Of a DNA stretch of 10,853 nucleotides, positions 1 through 10,853 are shown in pieces (the stretch's first letter is position 1; each line of letters starts with the position of its first letter). The notes beneath the pieces were generated by a model. The model did not search any database. It had not been told where the DNA came from and saw only the letters and a list, made by a program, of their open reading frames with translations. The position numbers were made by a program, and so were the translations under genes. The DNA is from Actinomycetota bacterium (GTDB lineage: Bacteria > Cyanobacteriota > Vampirovibrionia > Obscuribacterales > Obscuribacteraceae): NCBI GenBank assembly GCA_903970355.1, contig CAJCIF010000245.1, positions 1 to 10,853 of the forward strand. Direction: 5' to 3'.

Positions 1-1760
1 CAGAAATGTCCTCCTTTCGCCATAAGCGCGGCATAATCTCCACGCTCTTCTATCATGCCGTTTCGAAGTACGATGATTTCGTCGCAGTCAACCAACCACC
101 CTAAGTCATGTGTAACCAAAATGATCGTGCGCTGTCCCCGCAGAGCGAAGATAGCATTCATAACCAAGTTGGCCTTTTCGCTATCAAGGTGGTTAGTAGG
201 CTCGTCGAATATTAGAATCGGGGCCTGACTCAAGAACGTTCGAGCCAGAGCGATTCTCTGTCGTTGTCCAACCGACAGGTTGTGTCCGTGTTCGGTCAGA
301 ATGGTTTCATACTTCTTGGGCAGCTTGTCGATGAAACCGGCTGCTCCTGCTGCAACTGCGGCTTGCTGAACATCTGCCCGCGTTGCATTTGGTCTGCCGT
401 AAGCGATGTTTTCGTAGAGCGATGTTGGAAACAGCAGTGCTTCCTGAAATGCGCAGGCAAAGTGTCCACGCACATGGTCGAGTTTGCACGTACTGAGATC
501 AAATTGATCCAGCATAATGCTACCACTGGTAGGGTCATCGAACCGAGGCAAAAGATTGACGAGCGTGCTCTTGCCACAGCCACTTTCGCCTACCACCGCA
601 ACGATGCGCCCTGGAGGAATCTCAAGAGAAATTCCATTCAGGACGGACATATCGTTCGAGTAACCGAAACGAACATCGTTAAGTGCAATGGTTCTGGGTT
701 GAATCGGCATGTTTTTGCCATCGATTGGTTCCTTTGCTTCCGGCTCTCTGTCCAGTATTTCAAAGAGTCGCTTCGCCCCGGAGAGTCCCTGAGCGATGTC
801 GACATTGAAACTGGAGAACCGACACAAAGGCAACCACATAGTGTTGAGGTAGTCGAGGAAAACGAGCACCTCGCCTCCTGAAAGTGCCAGCTTGCCGGCA
901 TGTGAAAGTTCGCCACGGACTGCCAGCACGCCACCATATGCAAAGACAGCAGAAGCCGCCAACGCATAAACCATGTCGATGATCAGGTTATAGGTAGCCT
1001 CGCTTTTGACCACTTCCTGCCAGCCATTGGCACTGCCGCGCGCTGCATTAGCGAAACTGCGAATCTCATCTTTGACATGCAGGAACGCGTGTACAACAGG
1101 CATGGTTCCTATCGAGCGAACCAAACAGTTGTACAGGGAAGTGTCTGCTTCTTTAGCACGGTTTGTAAATTCCTCTACGCGAGAAGAGAAGTAGAGATTG
1201 GTAAGGATGACGATTGGTGTAATGGAAAGACAGATGAAGGTCATGATCGGACTGATAGTGATCATGATCCACACAGCCGCTACGACGGATAGACCGGCCG
1301 TGAGCGTTTCCACAACCACCTTGAAGATCTCGGAACATCCGAGTGAATCTTCATTGAGACGATAGACCAGGTCTCCTTCGCTCTGCTGGCGATTGTAAGG
1401 AACACCCAGGTCTTGCAGCTTTTGGAAGAGTTCGCACTTGGCGCGGAAATCACCGTTATAGTCGATACGGGTTTCCACGACGGTGTGTAAAAAGGTGAGA
1501 ATGATCTGGCTCACCTTAGAGATTAGGAAAATGAGGGCCAACCCAACCACTTCCTTGATCCTGTCCGGTGGCAGAATGGAGAGGAGCAAGTTGCTTACCC
1601 AGTTGGTATGCGGCTCGGTATGCGTCAAATCCATGAGGATTGCCGCAGGCCAGGCTTCAACCAACTCGATGATGGTGAGTAGCCCTACGATGACGAAGAG
1701 CCAGGCTATGAGCCATTTGTCTTCGAAAAAGTACTTGATGGATCTGCGTATTAATTTCAT
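1..1760 (-). CDS. ABC exporter half-transporter, fused membrane and ATPase domains (3' end off the window)
   Basis: This is an ABCB/MsbA-type exporter that would work as a dimer in the inner membrane; the substrate cannot be told. I translated 586 codons from an ATG at 1760-1758. The membrane domain fills about residues 15-330, with hydrophobic stretches near 17-37, 75-93, 160-200 and 275-300. The ATPase domain has Walker A GESGCGKST (391-399), a Q-loop in AFQEALLF, signature LSVGQ (495-499) instead of the usual LSGGQ, Walker B ILIFDEP with D519 and catalytic E520, a D-loop written NHLD, and switch His551 in VTHD. Exporters of this class are about 580-620 aa, so the stop lies just past the left edge. 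The start is supported by an SD GGAGGG at 1774-1769, 8 bases upstream. The gene stands alone and is divergent from the genes to its right. The family call is firm; the substrate is unknown. Confidence 0.95.
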   Translation of the reverse strand, partial: MKLIRRSIKYFFEDKWLIAWLFVIVGLLTIIELVEAWPAAILMDLTHTEPHTNWVSNLLLSILPPDRIKEVVGLALIFLISKVSQIILTFLHTVVETRIDYNGDFRAKCELFQKLQDLGVPYNRQQSEGDLVYRLNEDSLGCSEIFKVVVETLTAGLSVVAAVWIMITISPIMTFICLSITPIVILTNLYFSSRVEEFTNRAKEADTSLYNCLVRSIGTMPVVHAFLHVKDEIRSFANAARGSANGWQEVVKSEATYNLIIDMVYALAASAVFAYGGVLAVRGELSHAGKLALSGGEVLVFLDYLNTMWLPLCRFSSFNVDIAQGLSGAKRLFEILDREPEAKEPIDGKNMPIQPRTIALNDVRFGYSNDMSVLNGISLEIPPGRIVAVVGESGCGKSTLVNLLPRFDDPTSGSIMLDQFDLSTCKLDHVRGHFACAFQEALLFPTSLYENIAYGRPNATRADVQQAAVAAGAAGFIDKLPKKYETILTEHGHNLSVGQRQRIALARTFLSQAPILIFDEPTNHLDSEKANLVMNAIFALRGQRTIILVTHDLGWLVDCDEIIVLRNGMIEERGDYAALMAKGGHF

Positions 1761-1768
1761 GGTGGTAA

Positions 1769-1774
1769 CCCTCC
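1769..1774 (-). promoter_or_regulatory. Strong ribosome binding site of the ABC exporter
   Basis: GGAGGG on the minus strand lies 8 bases before the ATG at 1760. It decides the start of the exporter gene and contrasts with the SD-less starts in the right half of the window. Confidence 0.8.
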
Positions 1775-1948
1775 ATAGCGCTAGTGCGCCATTTAGAAGT
1801 TAGTGAAAAAAAACTGGTTTCGAGCGCAGTACGATTTGCGAACGCCCTGGCGCACGCAATTTGACTTATTTGAAAGGGAATGCCGGGATTACGATTGATT
1901 CTTCAGAAGAAGAAAATATGCCTAAGGGAAAGAGATTGAAGCTTTCAT

Positions 1949-3916: not shown

Positions 3917-4534
3917 ATGCAAAAAATGAACCAGATCGGAACGGTTCCTCGTTTGGTGAGGGGAATTGCTATTACGGCTTATTTTGTAAGCGCCTTGTTC
4001 GTCCACTCAGATCGAGAAGACATCGCATTTAGCTCAAGTCATCCAGACAACTGGCTGCTTGAAGATGATGGCACCCTCGAGCAGCTCGATTTTCAGCCAA
4101 GCGCACCAGTTCGGCTTGTAATCGACCTCCCGACTAGTTATAGAGGTGATCTTAAGATCCATTGCATCAGGCAAACGCATCTCGAAATCGACTACTGGAA
4201 TGGTGAAAATGGCGAGCTTCATTTCACCGGGCCCAGTCAATTTTCGGCAAAACGTCTCAATTTTCAAAAGGTCGACATTTTCGCAGCCGGCAATTCGAAA
4301 GTGCTAATTGAACGTTTGCGTGTCCAAACCTGCACATTGCTTGCCTCTTCTTACTACACCGAGCTTACGGTGCAGGATATGAAGTCCGAGCAGCTGGAGT
4401 TAATTTCGATGAGCGGGGCGAAGGCGCACATCGTTAGTGGAAGCGCAAAGTCCGGGTTCGCTTGCGGAACAAGTGGCGAAATCATCCTGCAAGGAGATTT
4501 CCTCAACATCAAGCGCCCGGATATTGGACACTAA
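3917..4534 (+). CDS. Membrane-anchored or secreted beta-rich protein resembling DUF2807 (GIN domain)
   Basis: The start ATG at 3917 has an SD GGGAG (3908-3912) 4 bases away; residue 4 is a second Met. A basic N-terminus (VPRLVRG) leads into a hydrophobic segment at about 16-29 (GIAITAYFVSALFV), an uncleaved anchor or signal peptide. Beyond about residue 60 the protein is a series of short alternating strands with small turns, for example FAAGNSKVLIERL, LISMSGAKAHIVSGSAKSG and CGTSGEIILQGDF (about 121-195). This looks like the repeating right-handed beta-helix of DUF2807/GIN proteins, which are extracytoplasmic and of poorly known function. The resemblance is by eye only. An intrinsic terminator follows at 4553-4591, so the gene is probably monocistronic. 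Confidence 0.75.
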   Translation: MQKMNQIGTVPRLVRGIAITAYFVSALFVHSDREDIAFSSSHPDNWLLEDDGTLEQLDFQPSAPVRLVIDLPTSYRGDLKIHCIRQTHLEIDYWNGENGELHFTGPSQFSAKRLNFQKVDIFAAGNSKVLIERLRVQTCTLLASSYYTELTVQDMKSEQLELISMSGAKAHIVSGSAKSGFACGTSGEIILQGDFLNIKRPDIGH

Positions 4535-4552
4535 GCGCTTCGCTGATGTTTA

Positions 4553-4600
4553 GTGAGAAGGACCAAATTCAAAAATTTCGGTCCTTCTCACACATCTTTT
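4553..4600 (+). terminator. Intrinsic terminator after the DUF2807-like gene
   Basis: A perfect 12-base stem GTGAGAAGGACC (4553-4564)/GGTCCTTCTCAC (4580-4591) encloses a further AAATT/AATTT stem with a one-base bulge. The downstream tract ACATCTTTTG is only modestly T-rich. It is symmetrical enough to act in both directions. Confidence 0.75.
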
Positions 4601-4606
4601 GTGCTC

Positions 4607-4649
4607 TTTGCCTATTTTCCGATCATAGTTATACTCTATCACATAGTAT
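4607..4649 (+). promoter_or_regulatory. Candidate promoter with ATACT-N9-AGTAT inverted repeat
   Basis: TTTGCC (4607-4612) and TATACT (4630-4635) are 17 bases apart. The -10 differs from TATAAT at one base; the -35 is weak. ATACT (4631-4635) and AGTAT (4645-4649) form an inverted repeat that is almost copied at 5595-5613, with identical spacing and several shared flanking bases. It follows a terminator and no protein gene follows before the next terminator at 4776. Confidence 0.35.
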
Positions 4650-4829
4650 TTACTTTCAATATAAGGCACCAACTGAGAAATTTTTGGACTTAATACGTGT
4701 TCTCCACATCTCTATGAACCAAGTTAGCCCACATTCCTAATTCAATATGGCATCAGACAACTAGCCTGCTTCGATAGCGCGAGCCGATTTTGGTACCGAA
4801 TACAGTACCACTAAATGCTCGCGCTTTTT
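4642..4829 (+). ncRNA. Candidate small RNA between promoter-like site and intrinsic terminator
   Basis: A transcript starting about 7 bases after TATACT (4630-4635) would run about 190 nt to the terminator at 4776-4829. No frame of meaningful length with a ribosome site occurs in it. This is inferred only from the arrangement of a promoter-like box, absence of a coding frame and a terminator that cannot belong to the preceding gene, which already has its own. The start is approximate. Confidence 0.25.
4776..4829 (+). terminator. Intrinsic terminator with a nested hairpin
   Basis: AGCGCGAGC (4776-4784) pairs perfectly with GCTCGCGCT (4817-4825), followed at once by TTTTT (4825-4829). Inside, GGTAC (4792-4796) pairs with GTACC (4805-4809). 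It lies about 190 bases past the previous terminator with no gene between, which implies a separate transcript ending here. Confidence 0.75.
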
Positions 4830-4837
4830 GCTTGCAA

Positions 4838-4883
4838 GCTAGTATTGGCGCTAGTTTCACTAAGAGTAATACTCGCGCTAGCT
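4838..4883. repeat. Complex inverted repeat with AGCTAG/CTAGCT ends
   Basis: AGCTAG (4838-4843) and CTAGCT (4878-4883) pair at the ends, and GTATT/AATAC pairing follows inside. The octamer-like GCGCTAG occurs in both halves. The interior holds TAGT-TTC-ACTA and the perfect palindrome GAGTA-A-TACTC (4864-4874). No T-run follows, so it is not a terminator. It could be a protein-binding region for the 5104 gene or a remnant of a small repeat element. Confidence 0.4.
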
Positions 4884-5048
4884 GATGTTTTTCGTATTAG
4901 TAACACCGGCCGCCCCTTGATTACAGGCTTCTAGATCTGCCACTTTCAGGCGTATTTTAGTTTTTCAATTCGCAGCATAAGAGAGTCAATCACCCAATAG
5001 ATTCGTTCCAAGTAGGTCCTTATTCCACACCAGTTATGGTGATGGACG

Positions 5049-5089
5049 AACTTCGTTTTCAACAAAAGACTTCATTTTCATTCGAAGTC
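5049..5089 (+). promoter_or_regulatory. Direct repeat and hairpin just upstream of the 5104 gene
   Basis: ACTTCGTTTTCA (5049-5060) and ACTTCATTTTCA (5069-5080) match at 11 of 12 bases and are 20 bases apart, about two helical turns. The second copy lies in an inverted repeat GACTTC (5068-5073)/GAAGTC (5084-5089) ending 3 bases before the SD AGGAG (5093-5097). It may be a transcription factor site or a leader hairpin affecting ribosome access. Confidence 0.4.
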
Positions 5090-5103
5090 ACCAGGAGTTA
5101 TGT

Positions 5104-5481
5104 ATGGTCATTTCAATTCATTTGAATTTACTGCACACTGCGATCGCCTTCTCTTCCGCGGCTATCTTCTTTGGCCTGATTTGTGCAGTTAGAAAATTTC
5201 TCAGCCGCTATGCCGCTGTCCTAACAAGCAGATTTGAGCGGAATAAGCGCAAGCATGCAAAAATCGTACTCCGTTATGCCAGTGACCTAAACACGTATGT
5301 GTTCTCTTTATGGCCCGACGAACGGACTCTTGCAGATGCAATCAAAAGCCTTGAAGAAGCCAGGATGTTTTGGGATGCGAAGTTATATCGACGTTGTATT
5401 AAGGCGTCTAACGAAGCTACCCGTGTTTTTCTAGAGACCATTGAACGTCTAGAAATTTCGCACTGCGCCGGTTGTAAGTAA
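5104..5481 (+). CDS. Single-span membrane protein with cytoplasmic helical domain (125 aa)
   Basis: I do not recognise this protein. The SD AGGAG at 5093-5097 is 6 bases before the ATG at 5104; an out-of-frame ATG at 5100 gives only a short peptide. Residues about 9-29 (LLHTAIAFSSAAIFFGLICAV) form a single membrane span, followed by a strongly basic stretch (RKFLSRY, RFERNKRKHAK), which puts the C-terminal domain in the cytoplasm. Residues about 72-117 (ERTLADAIKSLEEARMFWDA, then LYRRCIKASNEATRVFLETIER) look like two amphipathic helices in a helical hairpin, reminiscent of MIT, TPR or HEPN bundles but with no diagnostic motif. A CAGC tail adds two cysteines. The gene stands between a repeat-rich leader and a strong terminator, so it is probably transcribed alone. 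Confidence 0.75.
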   Translation: MVISIHLNLLHTAIAFSSAAIFFGLICAVRKFLSRYAAVLTSRFERNKRKHAKIVLRYASDLNTYVFSLWPDERTLADAIKSLEEARMFWDAKLYRRCIKASNEATRVFLETIERLEISHCAGCK

Positions 5482-5510
5482 GGATATGTTCTAACGCGAT
5501 CTGCGATTCG

Positions 5511-5586
5511 CAAACGGTCGGGCCTTTGTTGAAGGACGCAAGTCTAACAATAGAGGCCTGACCCGTTTGGGTTTCTCGATTTTTTT
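5511..5586 (+). terminator. Long intrinsic terminator with GNRA-type loop
   Basis: CAAACGGTCGGGCCT (5511-5525) pairs with AGGCCTGACCCGTTTG (5554-5569) with one bulge and one G-U pair. TTGTT (5526-5530)/AACAA (5546-5550) extends the stem, and the tip is GAC-GCAA-GTC, a GNRA tetraloop. A TTTTTTT tract lies at 5580-5586. It ends the 5104 gene and is unusually long for a terminator. Confidence 0.8.
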
Positions 5587-5613
5587 GTCACATTATACTG
5601 TCCGTTATAGTAT
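5585..5613 (+). promoter_or_regulatory. Promoter with overlapping operator-like repeat, for the 5686 gene
   Basis: TTGTCA (5585-5590) and TAGTAT (5608-5613) are 17 bases apart, a good sigma70 pair. ATACT (5595-5599) and AGTAT (5609-5613) form an inverted repeat covering the spacer and -10, a classic repressor position. A near-copy lies at 4631-4649. Transcription would start near 5620, about 65 nt before the ATG at 5686. Confidence 0.5.
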
Positions 5614-5685
5614 CTAATTAAAGAGAAGATTTTTGAATCAAACAAAATAAGCTAAGCTAAAAAGCGATCCTTCCCAAAAGCGCTA

Positions 5686-6450
5686 ATGCCCCAATTGCGT
5701 ATTCGTTCAATTTTGTGTCTGCTAGTTACCCTTTCTCTCTCAATCCCTGCTTCTTTTGCGGCGGACAAAGAGGAGCAAGGCTATGTTCTCGAACAGAACT
5801 GCCTGAGCATGGGTCCACAACATATTTCCATGACACAAAAGGGCATAAGAATTGACGATCGCAAGTTAGGCAACGTGCTCATTAGCACAGCGCCAAGTTG
5901 GAAGGTATCCATCTTTAACACCAAAAGTCGACGGGTTGTATCAACTCCCGCTGAGAAGTACTTCGGCGGTGCGACTCCCTGGGTTGTCGTAGGACTGGGC
6001 ATAAGTTTTCACAACCTGCCTTTGCAATTTCAAAAACAAACTACTGAAAAGGGTCTCGTACTGCGTACTTTCGTTATGCCGAAAAAACCGACGCCAAAAT
6101 TGGATGATCGCCGCAAGGCTTTCAACCAACTGCAAGGCATAATCGGAGCCTCGTATACCGTAACTAACTCTGTTCAGTTGCCAAAAGAAATACAAAAAAT
6201 TCTGGTTAAGTATTACGGACTACCGGATAAAGAAGGCTATCCGATCACAGTGGATTACGACGACGCGGAAGGGATGCATTTTAACTGGCTGGTGACGCAA
6301 TCTCTCAAGCCAGGATTTATCAAAGCTAGTGCATTTGTTGGTCCGACAAACTATCAAGTTGTGAAAGCTGAAGTCGACCTTCTTTGCCCATCAACAACTT
6401 CACAAGTGCAGGATATTTTGGATCTCACACGCACACGCGACGACAAGTAA
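5686..6450 (+). CDS. Secreted protein of unknown function (254 aa)
   Basis: A Sec signal peptide is clear: basic start (MPQLRIR), hydrophobic core at about 9-20, and a likely cleavage after A25 in PASFA-ADKEE. The mature part has only two cysteines, C39 and C234, near its two ends, which could form a disulfide in the periplasm or outside. Beta-like stretches such as PSWKVSIFNTKSRRVVSTP (70-88) and TPWVVVGLGISFHNLPLQF (97-115) dominate the first half; the second half mixes strands with a Pro/Lys-rich linker (MPKKPTPKL). I recognise no enzyme motif. No SD precedes the ATG. It has its own promoter-like element (5585-5613), and is followed by a 280-base gap, so it is probably a single-gene unit. 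Confidence 0.85.
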   Translation: MPQLRIRSILCLLVTLSLSIPASFAADKEEQGYVLEQNCLSMGPQHISMTQKGIRIDDRKLGNVLISTAPSWKVSIFNTKSRRVVSTPAEKYFGGATPWVVVGLGISFHNLPLQFQKQTTEKGLVLRTFVMPKKPTPKLDDRRKAFNQLQGIIGASYTVTNSVQLPKEIQKILVKYYGLPDKEGYPITVDYDDAEGMHFNWLVTQSLKPGFIKASAFVGPTNYQVVKAEVDLLCPSTTSQVQDILDLTRTRDDK

Positions 6451-6730
6451 AAGTGTGCGCGCATAGTGTGGAATAGCTTCGCAAGCCAGTTTTGATGTAT
6501 TCGTTGTTGTCGCTAGTTCACACGAGTGGCTACTTGTTGCGAAAGCATCCGGTTTTCAAGTAATTTCGGAACATCATTTCTTTTCCTTGAATCGCCAGGA
6601 CTTTTTCCTTTTAAAAGGCAACTTCTCCAAAATACCAATACTCAAAAGCTAAGTGCATTGCTCTGAACGGAATCCCAGAGTGATGCGCTTAAAACCATAG
6701 GATCCCAATTCAATATAAAACAACTTTTCC
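6451..6730 (+). other. Intergenic region before the paralogue cluster
   Basis: No gene is seen in these 280 bases. A weak stem CGCACAC (6430-6436)/GTGTGCG (6453-6459) bridges the previous stop but has no T-run. CCTTTTAAAAGG (6607-6618) is a perfect 12-base palindrome. The promoter of the downstream cluster should be here; TATAAA at 6714-6719 is a possible -10 but lacks a good -35. Confidence 0.5.
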
Positions 6731-7138
6731 ATGGACCAGAAAATTTTGATTATCAGCAAACATGACTCGTTGCGGATAGAAATCCTTAATGCTATTGCCG
6801 AACGACATGCAAGGGCAGATGAATGTATTGGGCTCGTACTGGACCGCGGTCAAAACAGCGTTTTCCGAGGGTATCTGCCAGACAGCAGTCTGCATTCTTT
6901 CAATCTCCAAGAATATGGCTTAGTGATTATCGATCCCAATTCCCTCGACGATAACTCCACTCCTGGAATAACTATTGCTCGAACTTTTACATTGGCAGGA
7001 CGGCTTGTTGTTTGGGTAGGTATAAAGGCTCCAACAGCAGAGGGCGTAGTCGCTGTCCACATCTTTGATCTTCCCAACTATCTAAAAGCCTCGCCTGAAC
7101 TGAATGCCTACAAGGTCAAAGACAAAAACGTAGTTTGA
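6731..7138 (+). CDS. Small alpha/beta protein, possibly a degenerate receiver-like domain (135 aa)
   Basis: The fold pattern resembles a CheY-type receiver: strand KILIIS (4-9), helix SLRIEILNAIAERH (13-26), strand YGLVIIDP (62-69) with an Asp at the strand end, helix TPGITIARTFTLAG, and strand RLVVWVGIK. The acidic pair normally found after the first strand is missing (SKHD instead) and the rest is not typical, so phosphorylation is doubtful. Other Rossmann-like folds are equally possible. There is no signal peptide. No SD precedes the ATG. The gene starts the right-hand cluster: only 38 bases separate it from the lipoprotein gene, with no terminator, so they are probably co-transcribed. The gene call is good; the receiver idea is a guess. 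Confidence 0.7.
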   Translation: MDQKILIISKHDSLRIEILNAIAERHARADECIGLVLDRGQNSVFRGYLPDSSLHSFNLQEYGLVIIDPNSLDDNSTPGITIARTFTLAGRLVVWVGIKAPTAEGVVAVHIFDLPNYLKASPELNAYKVKDKNVV

Positions 7139-7176
7139 TTCATTAACAACATCCATCAAATTTAAAACTCAAATTT

Positions 7177-7764
7177 ATGATCAAGTTCAGTTTTCGTCTT
7201 GCGATAGTATTCGCAAGCACGGTCATTTTGCTCGGTTGCAGTACAAAACGCAGTCGCTCTAAGGAAGAACTAGCGATAGCTACTGAGAAAGCCGATGTAG
7301 AAGAAAGGATCGCCATCCAAAATGCGCGTTTAGTATCGTCGCTCAAATCTGAAGCTGTGTTATTCGGGGTGAATCAGTCGAGCCTCGACAGTCTAAAGCT
7401 CCCTGAAATAACAGATACAGCCAGTCAGGCGTCGGTCGATGCGCGCATTGCAAAAGCTAAAGCAACGCAAGTGCAGCTTCATCAGGCCATAAATCAAATT
7501 CTGAGATTCAAGATTCTTGCCATCGGTGGCTCCGTTAAAAATGAAAAGGCGGAGGTTCCTTTTGTGTACGACTCTACTAAAAATCAGGAGACGGAATATG
7601 TACGCGCCCTGGAGGCAGAATCAACAGAGGCAGATTTACAGCAACGTCTTCAACTTCGATTCAGTTCCGCTGCAAAAGCTAAAGGGACTCCCTGGCCGCA
7701 TCCGGTCAGTGTCGGGAAGGTATTGCGAAACATCAGACGATTCGCCAGAAAGTTGCATCCCTAA
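7177..7764 (+). CDS. Lipoprotein with helical mature domain (195 aa)
   Basis: The signal peptide MIKFSFRLAIVFASTVILLGC ends in a lipobox LLGC with lipidated C21. Ser at +2 favours the outer membrane under the Lol rule, if the organism follows it. The mature chain is rich in Ala, Glu, Lys and Gln. Helical, possibly coiled-coil stretches lie at about 28-60 (SKEELAIATEKADVEERIAI onward), 84-112 and 138-165, and the tail is basic (NIRRFARKLHP). I recognise no family. No SD precedes the ATG. It lies between the receiver-like gene (38 bases upstream) and the first paralogue (34 bases downstream), and is probably in one operon with both. A perfect hairpin CTTGCGA-TAGTAT-TCGCAAG (7198-7217) lies early in the coding region and might affect translation. 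Confidence 0.85.
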   Translation: MIKFSFRLAIVFASTVILLGCSTKRSRSKEELAIATEKADVEERIAIQNARLVSSLKSEAVLFGVNQSSLDSLKLPEITDTASQASVDARIAKAKATQVQLHQAINQILRFKILAIGGSVKNEKAEVPFVYDSTKNQETEYVRALEAESTEADLQQRLQLRFSSAAKAKGTPWPHPVSVGKVLRNIRRFARKLHP

Positions 7765-7798
7765 AACAATTCAATAAACAGCCATCAATCTGAAAAAT

Positions 7799-8668
7799 AT
7801 GAGTCAGACAGAATCTATTGTCCAACCGACATGGACAGAAATAGCCGAACGCCTGAACGCGGAGTACAAAAAATTGTCGGTTTTCGTCGAGAGCCTTTCC
7901 GCGTTCGATGCTCCTGAGCAGAAGAAGTATGTGCCCATTGAGGTCAGAGTTACATTGTCTGATTTCAAACCAGTACTGCAAGAGCTTCAGCTACTGCTGC
8001 AATTGGATAAAGAGACCTGGTCCGAAACCTCTGAAAGCAACCATTGGTTAGAAAGAAGATTCGATACCCTTCTGATTAGACGCTTGTTCGAAAAGGCGCA
8101 ATCCGTATACAACCGTTGCACTGGAGACGTTCGCTCTTTCGTTCCCCTGCTCGCTGCGATTGACTTGATTGCACGAATCATTGTTGATTACGACGGCACT
8201 GACGATGACCCTACGGACGTTATCAGAGAGCGGGAGCCGCTTGAGGATTGCAACGAAAGGTGTCACCTCCTCTTCTATGACTTCGCGAGAAATTTGCACA
8301 CTGTTTTCGAGTATGGAAAATCCCCGGCCGGGTCTAGTGCAGATTTCCAGAACCTCATGGGCGAGTGTGACACGGTCTGTGACCTGATTGACCACGTGAA
8401 AGAGTTGCAGAGAAAGCTCAATGTGAACAAGTCTGACGCGGCTATGAGGAACAACGATGCTTATCAGGTCGGTTCGCTAATCACAGTGAACTGGGCGCTA
8501 TTGAGAGCAAGTTCCGTTTCGCCGTACCGGGATGTTACTTGGGGCGCTCGCGACCACTTGTCCCGGATGGTGACTTTAGCAATCAATCGAACGGCATCGA
8601 TCGAACAGCGCTTAGCAGATCGCCTTTTCGTCCAACCCGACCCAAAACGCAAAATCTCTACTCATTGA
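7799..8668 (+). CDS. First of three tandem paralogues, helical protein of unknown family (289 aa)
   Basis: I do not recognise the family. The protein lacks a signal peptide and membrane span and looks almost wholly helical. It shares an ordered set of motifs with the next two genes: TW near residue 11, HWLERRFD (82-89) followed by RRLFEKA (94-100), LEDCNERCHLL (148-158), LMGECDT (186-192), LITVNW (227-232), a DHLSRMVTLAI helix (252-262) and IEQRLADRL (268-276). It has a longer C-terminal tail (DPKRKISTH) than its paralogues. The conserved LERR and NW blocks are candidates for the functional core. It starts 34 bases after the lipoprotein gene with an A-rich leader (CTGAAAAATATG) and no SD, and is followed by the hairpin at 8711-8732. 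Confidence 0.85.
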   Translation: MSQTESIVQPTWTEIAERLNAEYKKLSVFVESLSAFDAPEQKKYVPIEVRVTLSDFKPVLQELQLLLQLDKETWSETSESNHWLERRFDTLLIRRLFEKAQSVYNRCTGDVRSFVPLLAAIDLIARIIVDYDGTDDDPTDVIREREPLEDCNERCHLLFYDFARNLHTVFEYGKSPAGSSADFQNLMGECDTVCDLIDHVKELQRKLNVNKSDAAMRNNDAYQVGSLITVNWALLRASSVSPYRDVTWGARDHLSRMVTLAINRTASIEQRLADRLFVQPDPKRKISTH

Positions 8669-8710
8669 AAACAAAGATGGCAAGGCTCTTCCCATTGAAA
8701 GCATCTGGAC

Positions 8711-8743
8711 AAGTGGTTTTTCCAAACCACTTACCTTTTATTT
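8711..8743 (+). terminator. Intercistronic hairpin with T-rich tail between first and second paralogue
   Basis: AAGTGGTTT (8711-8719) pairs perfectly with AAACCACTT (8724-8732) around TTCC, followed by TTTTATTT (8736-8743). The next ATG is only 30 bases beyond the stem, leaving no room for a promoter after it, so it probably acts as a partial terminator or mRNA-processing site within an operon. The hairpin at 9603-9630 shares AAGTGGTT-Y-TTC with it. Confidence 0.7.
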
Positions 8744-8762
8744 AACAAAAAAAATCTAGAAA

Positions 8763-9587
8763 ATGAAACAGACAACAAGTCTCGTCCAAAAAACATGGAC
8801 AAGCATCGTGGACACAATCGCCGCGAAAAAAGGAGAAGTTATGGGCTTCCTGCATTCCCTGACTCACGCAAAGCCCGAACAGCAACACGCCCTCGCAACT
8901 GAAATTCGGCCGAAGCTGACCGCTCTCGATCTCGCCACACTCCAGAAACGAATAAAGGTCAAACTGGAAGTAGCCGAGTTGTACGAAACCGACCCCGAGA
9001 GCCTATCCGAGCATTGGTTGGAAAGAAGCTACGACGCCGTTATCATCAATCGCCTATTTACGCGTGCCGATCAGGTCATCCACACTTTCGACAAACATCC
9101 GCGCGATCTCGCAGGCCTTATCGTTGTTCTTGACCTCATATCGTTGGTCATTTGCAACTACGACAGCGCCGATGAAGACACGACCCTGGTCGAAGAGGAG
9201 CCGCCAACCCTGGAGTATCTTGCGGAAAAGTGCCGCTTGCTCTGCTTGAGACAGGAGTCGCTCCTCAATTACGCCCTATTCAAAGAAAGCAATCATGCCG
9301 GTGACCATCACGCCTATGAGAGTCTATTGGGAAGAATCGAGGTTACAGGTGAAATATCACTCTGGCCCCGCGACAACTACCCATGGCTCAACCAACAATT
9401 GCCCGGTACCGATGCCAACAAAGAAGCAAACTACCTCGGTAAACTGATCAACGTCAACTGGAAACAACTGAGAATTCCCGCAGAGGAAATCGTTCTCGCC
9501 GGCAGACGACACTTCAGCAGTTACCTGCATCTGACCTTGAACTTGCTTCGAGGCCTGGATCTGCAGCTAGCCAATTTGCTCATGTAA
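8763..9587 (+). CDS. Second of three tandem paralogues (274 aa)
   Basis: Clear paralogue of the gene at 7799. It has TW at 11-12, HWLERSYD (84-91), INRLFTRADQVI (95-106), LEYLAEKCRLL (150-160), LLGRIE (188-193), LINVNW (228-233), HFSSYLHLTL (250-259) and LDLQLANLL (265-273). At the DNA level the HWLER block is nearly identical to the first copy (CATTGG and following 11 bases at 9012-9028 versus 8042-8058). It lacks the first copy's basic tail. The protein is helical, without a signal peptide or membrane span. The start has no SD, only an A-rich leader (AAAAAAAATCTAGAAA). The function is unknown. Divergence of the paralogues suggests specialised partners rather than dosage. Confidence 0.85.
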   Translation: MKQTTSLVQKTWTSIVDTIAAKKGEVMGFLHSLTHAKPEQQHALATEIRPKLTALDLATLQKRIKVKLEVAELYETDPESLSEHWLERSYDAVIINRLFTRADQVIHTFDKHPRDLAGLIVVLDLISLVICNYDSADEDTTLVEEEPPTLEYLAEKCRLLCLRQESLLNYALFKESNHAGDHHAYESLLGRIEVTGEISLWPRDNYPWLNQQLPGTDANKEANYLGKLINVNWKQLRIPAEEIVLAGRRHFSSYLHLTLNLLRGLDLQLANLLM

Positions 9588-9602
9588 TTCCATGAAAACG
9601 AT

Positions 9603-9640
9603 GGGAAGTGGTTCTTCGGAGCCGCTTCCCTTATTTAATT
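9603..9640 (+). terminator. Intercistronic UUCG hairpin between second and third paralogue
   Basis: GGGAAGTGGTTC (9603-9614) pairs with GAGCCGCTTCCC (9619-9630) through 12 pairs, two of them G-U, around a C(UUCG)G tetraloop, one of the most stable RNA loops. TTATTTAATT follows. The third ATG is 31 bases downstream. As at 8711-8743, the position suggests attenuation or processing within an operon. Confidence 0.8.
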
Positions 9641-9661
9641 ACTAACTACAAAAATCAAATA

Positions 9662-10468
9662 ATGAAGAACCACCTTAGCGTTGGTATCAACAACTGGCAA
9701 GAGATGGTCAGCTCTATCGCTGCCACCAAAGTAAAACTTTCTGGATATTTGAACGATCTGCTTTCAGCAACGCCTGCTGAATTTGAAGTCGTCGCATTTT
9801 CAATTGAAGGTAAGCTCAAATTATTACCGCGTGAATTTTCAATAGTGCAAGATTTCATTTATGCCATGAAGGACGCGCGATTTACGATGGGACCTGGCAA
9901 TTATCTCTATATGCTGGAGAGAAGAATTGATGTCGTTCTTCTTCAAAGACTGATAGAAAGGGCTAAGGAGACTGCTGCTGTTTTCGATAGAAGTGTGCGT
10001 TCTTTCGTTCCGGCATTTTCAGCAGTTGAATTTGCTGAATCTAACGCCCGCGGATACAACGAGTTCGCACGAGATCCTCACCCCCACTATGAAAAGCCAT
10101 TAGCAAACCTGGAGGAATGCAATGCCAAATTTCTCGTGTTCAGCTTTCGTCACAGCCACATCATCGTTGAGGCGTTGGCGCAGGAAGGTAAGAAAAACAG
10201 GACCTCCCTAAATGTTGAGCAACTGCTTGGAGAAATTGATACGCTTGAAATACTCCATAATTGGCTCGTCTCGCTGTATACAGATTTAAATTCGCAGTTA
10301 CCCGCTTTGAACGTAAGTGAATTGATCGACCTGAATTGGGACCCTTCGATAGTTCCTAGCAAAGACCTCGAGCAAGCTGCCGCTCAGCACTTTCAATGTG
10401 TGCTGACACTGACACTTAGCTGGGTTGAAAGCATAGAACTACGCTTGGCGAAACTTCAATTCAACTAA
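9662..10468 (+). CDS. Third of three tandem paralogues (268 aa)
   Basis: Paralogue of the two preceding genes. I start at ATG 9662: the frame is open from a GTG at 9608, but that extension would run through the terminator hairpin. Shared blocks are NW at 11-12, MLERRID (84-90), LQRLIERAKETAAVF (94-108), RSFVPAFSAVEF (113-124), LEECNAKFLVF (150-160), LLGEIDT (188-194), LIDLNW (221-226), HFQCVLTLTL (243-252) and IELRLAKL (258-265). RSFVP is shared only with the first copy. The LER, LE-C and LLG blocks lie at the same residue positions as in the second copy, so insertions are few. Helical, no signal peptide or span, no SD (leader AAAATCAAATA). It is the last gene before a terminator. Confidence 0.85.
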   Translation: MKNHLSVGINNWQEMVSSIAATKVKLSGYLNDLLSATPAEFEVVAFSIEGKLKLLPREFSIVQDFIYAMKDARFTMGPGNYLYMLERRIDVVLLQRLIERAKETAAVFDRSVRSFVPAFSAVEFAESNARGYNEFARDPHPHYEKPLANLEECNAKFLVFSFRHSHIIVEALAQEGKKNRTSLNVEQLLGEIDTLEILHNWLVSLYTDLNSQLPALNVSELIDLNWDPSIVPSKDLEQAAAQHFQCVLTLTLSWVESIELRLAKLQFN

Positions 10469-10487
10469 TTTATTGGTGACTTTTAGG

Positions 10488-10540
10488 AACGACCGAAAGC
10501 GCGTCTTCAACGACGCATATTTCCGGTCGTTTCTATTTTC
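10488..10540 (+). terminator. Intrinsic terminator ending the paralogue cluster
   Basis: AACGACCG (10488-10495) pairs with CGGTCGTT (10524-10531), AAA/TTT extends it past a bulge, and GCGTC (10501-10505)/GACGC (10512-10516) closes the tip around TTCAA-C. The tail TTTCTATTTTCC follows. Confidence 0.75.
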
Positions 10541-10575
10541 CAATTTCTACTGTACTGTTTAGTATTACCGTTCGC

Positions 10576-10620
10576 CAAAAAGGGCGAGTGATAAACACAT
10601 GGAAATGTGCTCACCCGCCC
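10576..10620 (-). terminator. Intrinsic terminator of the convergent minus-strand gene
   Basis: GGGCG-A-GTGA (10582-10591) pairs with TCAC-C-CGCCC (10611-10620), and CACAT (10596-10600)/ATGTG (10605-10609) extends it around a GGAA loop (GNRA type). On the minus strand the stem is followed by TTTTT (complement of 10577-10581), so it serves the gene ending at 10634. Confidence 0.8.
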
Positions 10621-10633
10621 TGGGTTGTGTGGC

Positions 10634-10853
10634 TCAATCTAACACAAACTGCCAATATAGAAATTGCAAAAATCTCGACAGCCGGCTCTCTTTCTTCGGT
10701 GCCCGATCTTCTGAAAGGTGCTTGAAAGGAAGTCTCGTAAATGTAATTGCACCTTCCTCATTTTTCAGGACGACAACTGAAATCGTGTCACCAAATTCAA
10801 ATGCTTCGCAGTTGCCACTGCCTGATTTCAGTAATTGCCCCAAAGGCAACCTT
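10634..10853 (-). CDS. C-terminal part of an unidentified protein (5' end off the window)
   Basis: The minus-strand frame is open to the right edge, and the stop TGA is at 10636-10634. At least 72 residues are visible. A TTG near the edge is the only start-like codon, so the real start probably lies outside. The visible part begins with a polar segment (GQLLKSGSGNCEAFEFGD), then a beta-like TISVVVLKNEEGAITFTRLPF, then a basic amphipathic end (APKKESRLSRFLQFLYWQFVLD). I recognise no family. A good terminator just past the stop (10576-10620) supports a real gene convergent to the paralogue cluster. Confidence 0.6.
   Translation of the reverse strand, partial: RLPLGQLLKSGSGNCEAFEFGDTISVVVLKNEEGAITFTRLPFKHLSEDRAPKKESRLSRFLQFLYWQFVLD

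Follow-up and report, generated by a model that had tools for sequence, protein, structure and literature searches.

Lineage-restricted (orphan) tandem paralogue clusters, in which diverged tandem copies of a gene match no family and have a narrow distribution, are the described systems closest to the locus analysed here. Two others bear on its individual proteins, namely bacterial lipoproteins with a type II signal peptide, recognizable by a hydrophobic leader and a lipobox, and the response regulator receiver domain (PF00072). The window, i.e. the whole stretch of 10,853 nucleotides that we analysed, is the entire contig C245 of an assembled genome (3,748,987 bases in 548 contigs, 65.7% complete), and its GC content of 0.465 compares with a mean of 0.470 (sd 0.011) in 30 loci of the same genome. 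Five consecutive genes encode a 135-aa protein, a putative lipoprotein and three paralogues (c1, c2 and c3) of a very rare family, and similar hairpins lie in the two spacers between the paralogues:

3-1799, minus strand: ABC transporter frame
3917-4534: 205-aa ORF with a sub-threshold match to DUF4097
5104-5481: further upstream ORF scanned for families
5686-6450: 254-aa protein with a hydrophobic leader, ORF upstream of the cluster
6731-7138, plus strand: 135-aa protein, ORF without a family
7177-7764, plus strand: 195-aa putative lipoprotein, ORF with the lipobox LLGC at residues 18-21
7799-8668, plus strand: paralogue c1, 289 aa, ORF with the orthologue P0002 (58%)
8711-8732, plus strand: hairpin in the c1-c2 spacer, 9 pairs, loop TTCC
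8763-9587, plus strand: paralogue c2, 274 aa, ORF
9603-9630, plus strand: hairpin in the c2-c3 spacer, 12 pairs, loop TTCG
9662-10468, plus strand: paralogue c3, 268 aa, with P0003 (99%) and the orthologue P0004 (56%)
10484-10535 (place approximate), plus strand: long terminator-like hairpin behind c3, judged by eye in the fold of 10469-10560

All five genes named in the original prediction exist where it placed them, and the gaps of 38 and 34 bases that it gave before the lipoprotein gene and c1 are correct; the two gaps that follow, which it left unstated, are 94 (c1-c2) and 74 bases (c2-c3). The mechanical ORF list started c3 at a GTG (position 9608), but we prefer the ATG at 9662 (268 aa), because P0003, 99% identical to c3, begins there and because the hairpin at 9603-9630 spans the GTG. 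A site scan of positions 4500-10853 reported no plus-strand promoter-like sites in any gap separating the five genes; over the whole scanned region there were 5 promoter-like sites (expected 7.7, sd 2.8) and 11 terminator-like ones (expected 6.2, sd 2.6). Searches of the window for tRNAs and Rfam families gave no match. The 20 bases 5' of each of the five genes (within 6711-9661) are A+T-rich (0.65-0.85), with GGAG, AGGA and GAGG absent; Shine-Dalgarno-like 4-mers are missing before 6 of 7 window genes checked and present for 12 of 48 ORFs from the same genome, the starts and reality of which are unverified. The 205-aa ORF at 3917-4534 matches DUF4097 below threshold (E-value 0.048; 13.4 bits, the cut-off being 22.9).

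The proteins c1, c2 and c3 are significantly similar over most of their length in all three pairs (blastp, six-sequence comparison; c1/c2: 30% identity over 284 columns, E-value 1e-33; c1/c3: 27% over 284 columns, 9e-17; c2/c3: 27% over 275 columns, 3e-22). At 27-30% pairwise identity they are indeed strongly diverged paralogues, as had been proposed for the three adjacent genes. The ordered set of motifs said to be common to them holds as composites of one aligned family, but in a literal search only LI..NW occurs in all three copies (it is absent from P0002 and P0004); HWLER, LE.C, LE....[KR]C and RLA.{1,2}L are each found in two copies, LLGE.D and HFS each in one. Besides these three, no copies were detected in the genome, of which the assembly lacks about a third.

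Outside this genome the family is very rare. We searched with the trio profile four overlapping sets of genomes, each including the genome of the window. Among 146 genomes of relatives, the profile matched that genome and one other (G005, 17.1 bits); among 53 genomes of the order it matched that genome only, leaving no credible copy in the 52 others; among 382 genomes of the class, with up to six candidates scored per genome, it added one match of 15.5 bits (G153) and no credible copy in the 381 others; and among 117 relatives, at E-values up to 10, it added seven matches scoring 10.7-13.9 bits, one of them again in G005. We took all of these matches for chance: the one of 17.1 bits falls on the N-terminus of a 222-aa ORF, presumably a methyltransferase by its motif, and the one of 15.5 bits contains 5 stops. 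Scanning genome contigs for patterns from the three window copies gave 67 matching stretches, and the trio profile gave 24 pattern matches in viral contigs, none of either confirmed as relatives.

In a set of 5.8 billion proteins, c1 as the query retrieved itself and P0002, and a four-row profile retrieved P0001 (c1 itself) to P0004, so that the diverged relatives number two: P0002, 58% identical to c1, and P0004, 56% identical to c3. The profile search scored the 8000 candidates sharing most words and returned no c2 orthologue, a weak negative given that c2 itself was missed as well. Identity across the c1 and c3 lines is 26-30%, as against 58% (c1-P0002) and 56% (c3-P0004) within them, so the c1/c3 split is older than that of the lineages. 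Separate orthologous lines are thus supported for c1 and c3; for c2 we found no orthologue.

The averaged hydropathy of the trio has a helical periodicity (z 2.9 against permuted columns) and no strand periodicity (z -0.7), and the three-row alignment of the lipoprotein has no helical one (z -0.7). The trio proteins are thus probably mostly helical, in agreement with the helical nature originally predicted. None of the three has an N-terminal hydrophobic leader (15-residue maxima 0.71, 0.67 and 0.77, where the lipoprotein reaches 2.33 and the 254-aa protein 2.12). Within residues 110-134, or 111-134 if c1 and c2 are taken alone, c1, c2 and P0002 contain a hydrophobic stretch (19-residue means 1.86, 1.92 and 2.06) that is missing from c3 and P0004 (0.99 and 1.22). 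It could correspond to a buried helix or to contact with a membrane, and because of it c1 and c2 cannot safely be called soluble; it also gives one concrete distinction between the two lines.

It is quite possible, if somewhat short of an even chance, that the trio has a known fold or belongs to a known family invisible to sequence searches. The profile rested on five rows only (alignment A3, which omits P0003 as 99% identical to c3 and P0001 as c1 itself), and this leaves room for such a hidden relationship. Against it, Pfam and NCBIfam gave no match for the trio at an E-value of 1; at an E-value of 10 one Pfam family matched one member among the five rows (E-value 0.17), and the best PDB match of the trio profile (E-value 0.34) is at chance level. 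The matches to PADLOC defence genes (E-values 0.0044-0.019) and to PHROGs (0.026-0.34), each in 3 of the 8 proteins scanned, were likewise taken as chance. The earlier statement that the trio falls into no recognised family is therefore upheld by these collections. A phage or plasmid origin was rejected as well: c2, the sole copy of the three that was queried, had no tblastn match in phage or plasmid collections.

Both spacers between the paralogues carry a hairpin whose end lies 30-31 bases ahead of the ATG that follows. Their likeness is far above that of shuffled sequences (local score 44 versus a mean of 17.7, sd 3.25; none of 5000 shuffles reached 44). When the two junctions, extended by 150 bases in either direction, are aligned (not by codons) and divided into 25-column blocks, the block holding most of the hairpin and the one after it, which cover hairpin and leader, match at 18 of 25 positions each, and the 14 other full blocks at 8-15. 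Nine stem pairs are all kept between the spacers (six identical, two changed on one side, one changed on both), a covariation which, with two sequences, is no more than suggestive; a duplication that carried the spacer along, or a later conversion, would also explain the likeness. The hairpin is not a genome-wide repeat: with at most 3 mismatches allowed, it turned up in both spacers of the window and at a single further place, while the reversed control gave two places.

Stable folds are not confined to these spacers. The stretch 10469-10560 after c3 folds at -30.1 kcal/mol as a whole, its hairpin being absent from the list of the terminator scan, and the 38- and 34-base gaps between the 135-aa gene and c1 have no stable fold. 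As background we used nine co-directional gaps of 30-160 bases from 30 loci of the same genome and the window, four of them in the window; the c2-c3 gap was left out, since the ORF there started at 9608. Of the five gaps outside the window, the four longer ones (89-141 bases) have folding energies of -16.1 to -38.9 kcal/mol, the fifth (44 bases) one of -4.8. Stable folds in longer gaps are therefore ordinary in this genome, and plain terminators are a good reading of the spacer hairpins.

The 195-aa protein has the N-terminal leader (15-residue maximum at residue 8) and the lipobox cysteine expected of a lipoprotein. Its relatives are P0005 (98% identical) and P0006 (56%), the latter with a leader (2.27) and an FLGC that fails the strict lipobox pattern used; none was found in the 52 other genomes of the order. 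A match in G122 (18.2 bits, 34% identity) was taken as chance, as were the best Pfam (E-value 0.11) and PDB (MxiJ, 0.13) matches. A lipoprotein normally resides on the opposite side of the membrane from proteins without a leader. This one is therefore expected to point away from the cytosol, and direct contact with the leaderless c1-c3, and hence a direct partnership with the trio, is doubtful.

Retained synteny could not be seen: the other genomes searched contain no credible copies of the trio or the lipoprotein, so there is no conserved neighbourhood in them, by absence of the genes rather than by their scattering. For these genomes, this is the outcome that the original prediction had named as counting against it. 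The longest contigs of the metagenomic relatives measure 1146 (lipoprotein), 6700 (c1) and 9266 bases (c3). Flanking genes were considered as anchors for the orthologous place. The 254-aa protein, which has no Pfam or NCBIfam match at an E-value of 1, is one of a group of proteins present in 46 of 50 genomes from the taxonomic family (that of the window included), with 12 matches in the genome of the window and 23 in G025. The ABC transporter is only 29-34% identical to the matches listed in other genomes of its family and so looks accessory; because of this breadth and this low identity, respectively, neither marks an orthologous place, and both were rejected.

These observations bear on a second alternative, according to which a tandem family happens to lie beside an unrelated lipoprotein gene and an unrelated 135-aa gene, with ordinary terminators between the copies and no joint function. 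We regard it as a tentative option with a minority chance, one that is not exclusive of the other explanations. It would account for the hairpins in the 94- and 74-base gaps, the stable folds in four of five co-directional gaps outside the window and the lack of credible copies in relatives; it also fits the upstream ORFs, which are equally without a match over the cut-off (3917-4534 scanned against Pfam only, 5104-5481 and 5686-6450 against Pfam and NCBIfam). It fits less well with the tight, unfolded gaps from the 135-aa gene to c1, with the lack of promoter-like sites on the coding strand between the genes of the cluster and, as weak evidence, with the similar divergence of the relatives of the lipoprotein, c1 and c3 (56-58%).

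For the 135-aa protein, neither Pfam nor NCBIfam gave a match at an E-value of 1, and there was none in 142 other genomes of relatives; its PDB matches (haemoglobin and others, E-values of 0.046 and above) were taken as chance. We compared it with a profile of 30 of the 76 receiver places in the genome. With all filters off it scored -1.1 bits, below the lipoprotein (2.5) and c1 (1.9), and hhalign gave a probability of 0.2 over 14 columns, a single sequence having little power in such a comparison. PF00072 likewise gave no match. Run without a held-out receiver as a positive control, these comparisons show that the "receiver-like" label lacks support in sequence, and they stop short of excluding a receiver fold. 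A signalling cluster in which this protein acts as a degenerate receiver controlling the trio is very improbable, since the N-terminal KILIIS strand and the VIID segment that resemble receiver motifs by eye, and the wealth of receivers in the genome, are set against these profile scores.

The explanation that we favour, with moderate confidence overall, is a lineage-restricted accessory cluster with a tandemly triplicated, probably mostly helical protein. It builds on the observed paralogy, rarity, two separate orthologous lines and similar hairpin spacers. An ancestral, probably mostly helical protein would have been duplicated in tandem along with its hairpin-carrying spacer at a time when this lineage and its closest relatives in metagenomes had not yet separated; the resemblance of the spacers would stem from that duplication. 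The copies would then have diverged, at least the c1 and c3 lines being kept apart. The lipoprotein and 135-aa genes would be co-transcribed with the trio, as the common strand and short gaps suggest. We consider the reading as a cluster with a diverged trio highly probable. The hairpins could further terminate transcription in part, or serve as 3'-end/processing points, and so control the relative dose of c1, c2 and c3, and the three proteins could be specialised subunits or variants of one function; this part, taken by itself, is unlikely. Still less probable is the strongest form, an undescribed family whose three copies would enter one hetero-assembly, at a ratio set by a duplicated hairpin kept by selection. 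If the trio were one machine, it would offer a small case of tandem duplication of a gene and its spacer giving subunits with built-in dosage control; as it stands, the locus mainly contributes a very rare, unclassified protein family, together with a tested correction of the receiver label.

Compared with the receiver domain PF00072, the 135-aa protein shares a few motif-like segments by eye and differs in being without profile support. The 195-aa protein resembles lipoproteins with a type II signal peptide in its leader and LLGC lipobox, and differs in matching no family over the cut-off. The trio itself agrees with lineage-restricted tandem paralogue clusters in its lack of family matches, narrow distribution and diverged tandem copies, and it differs from them in that the spacers themselves are alike and carry a common hairpin.
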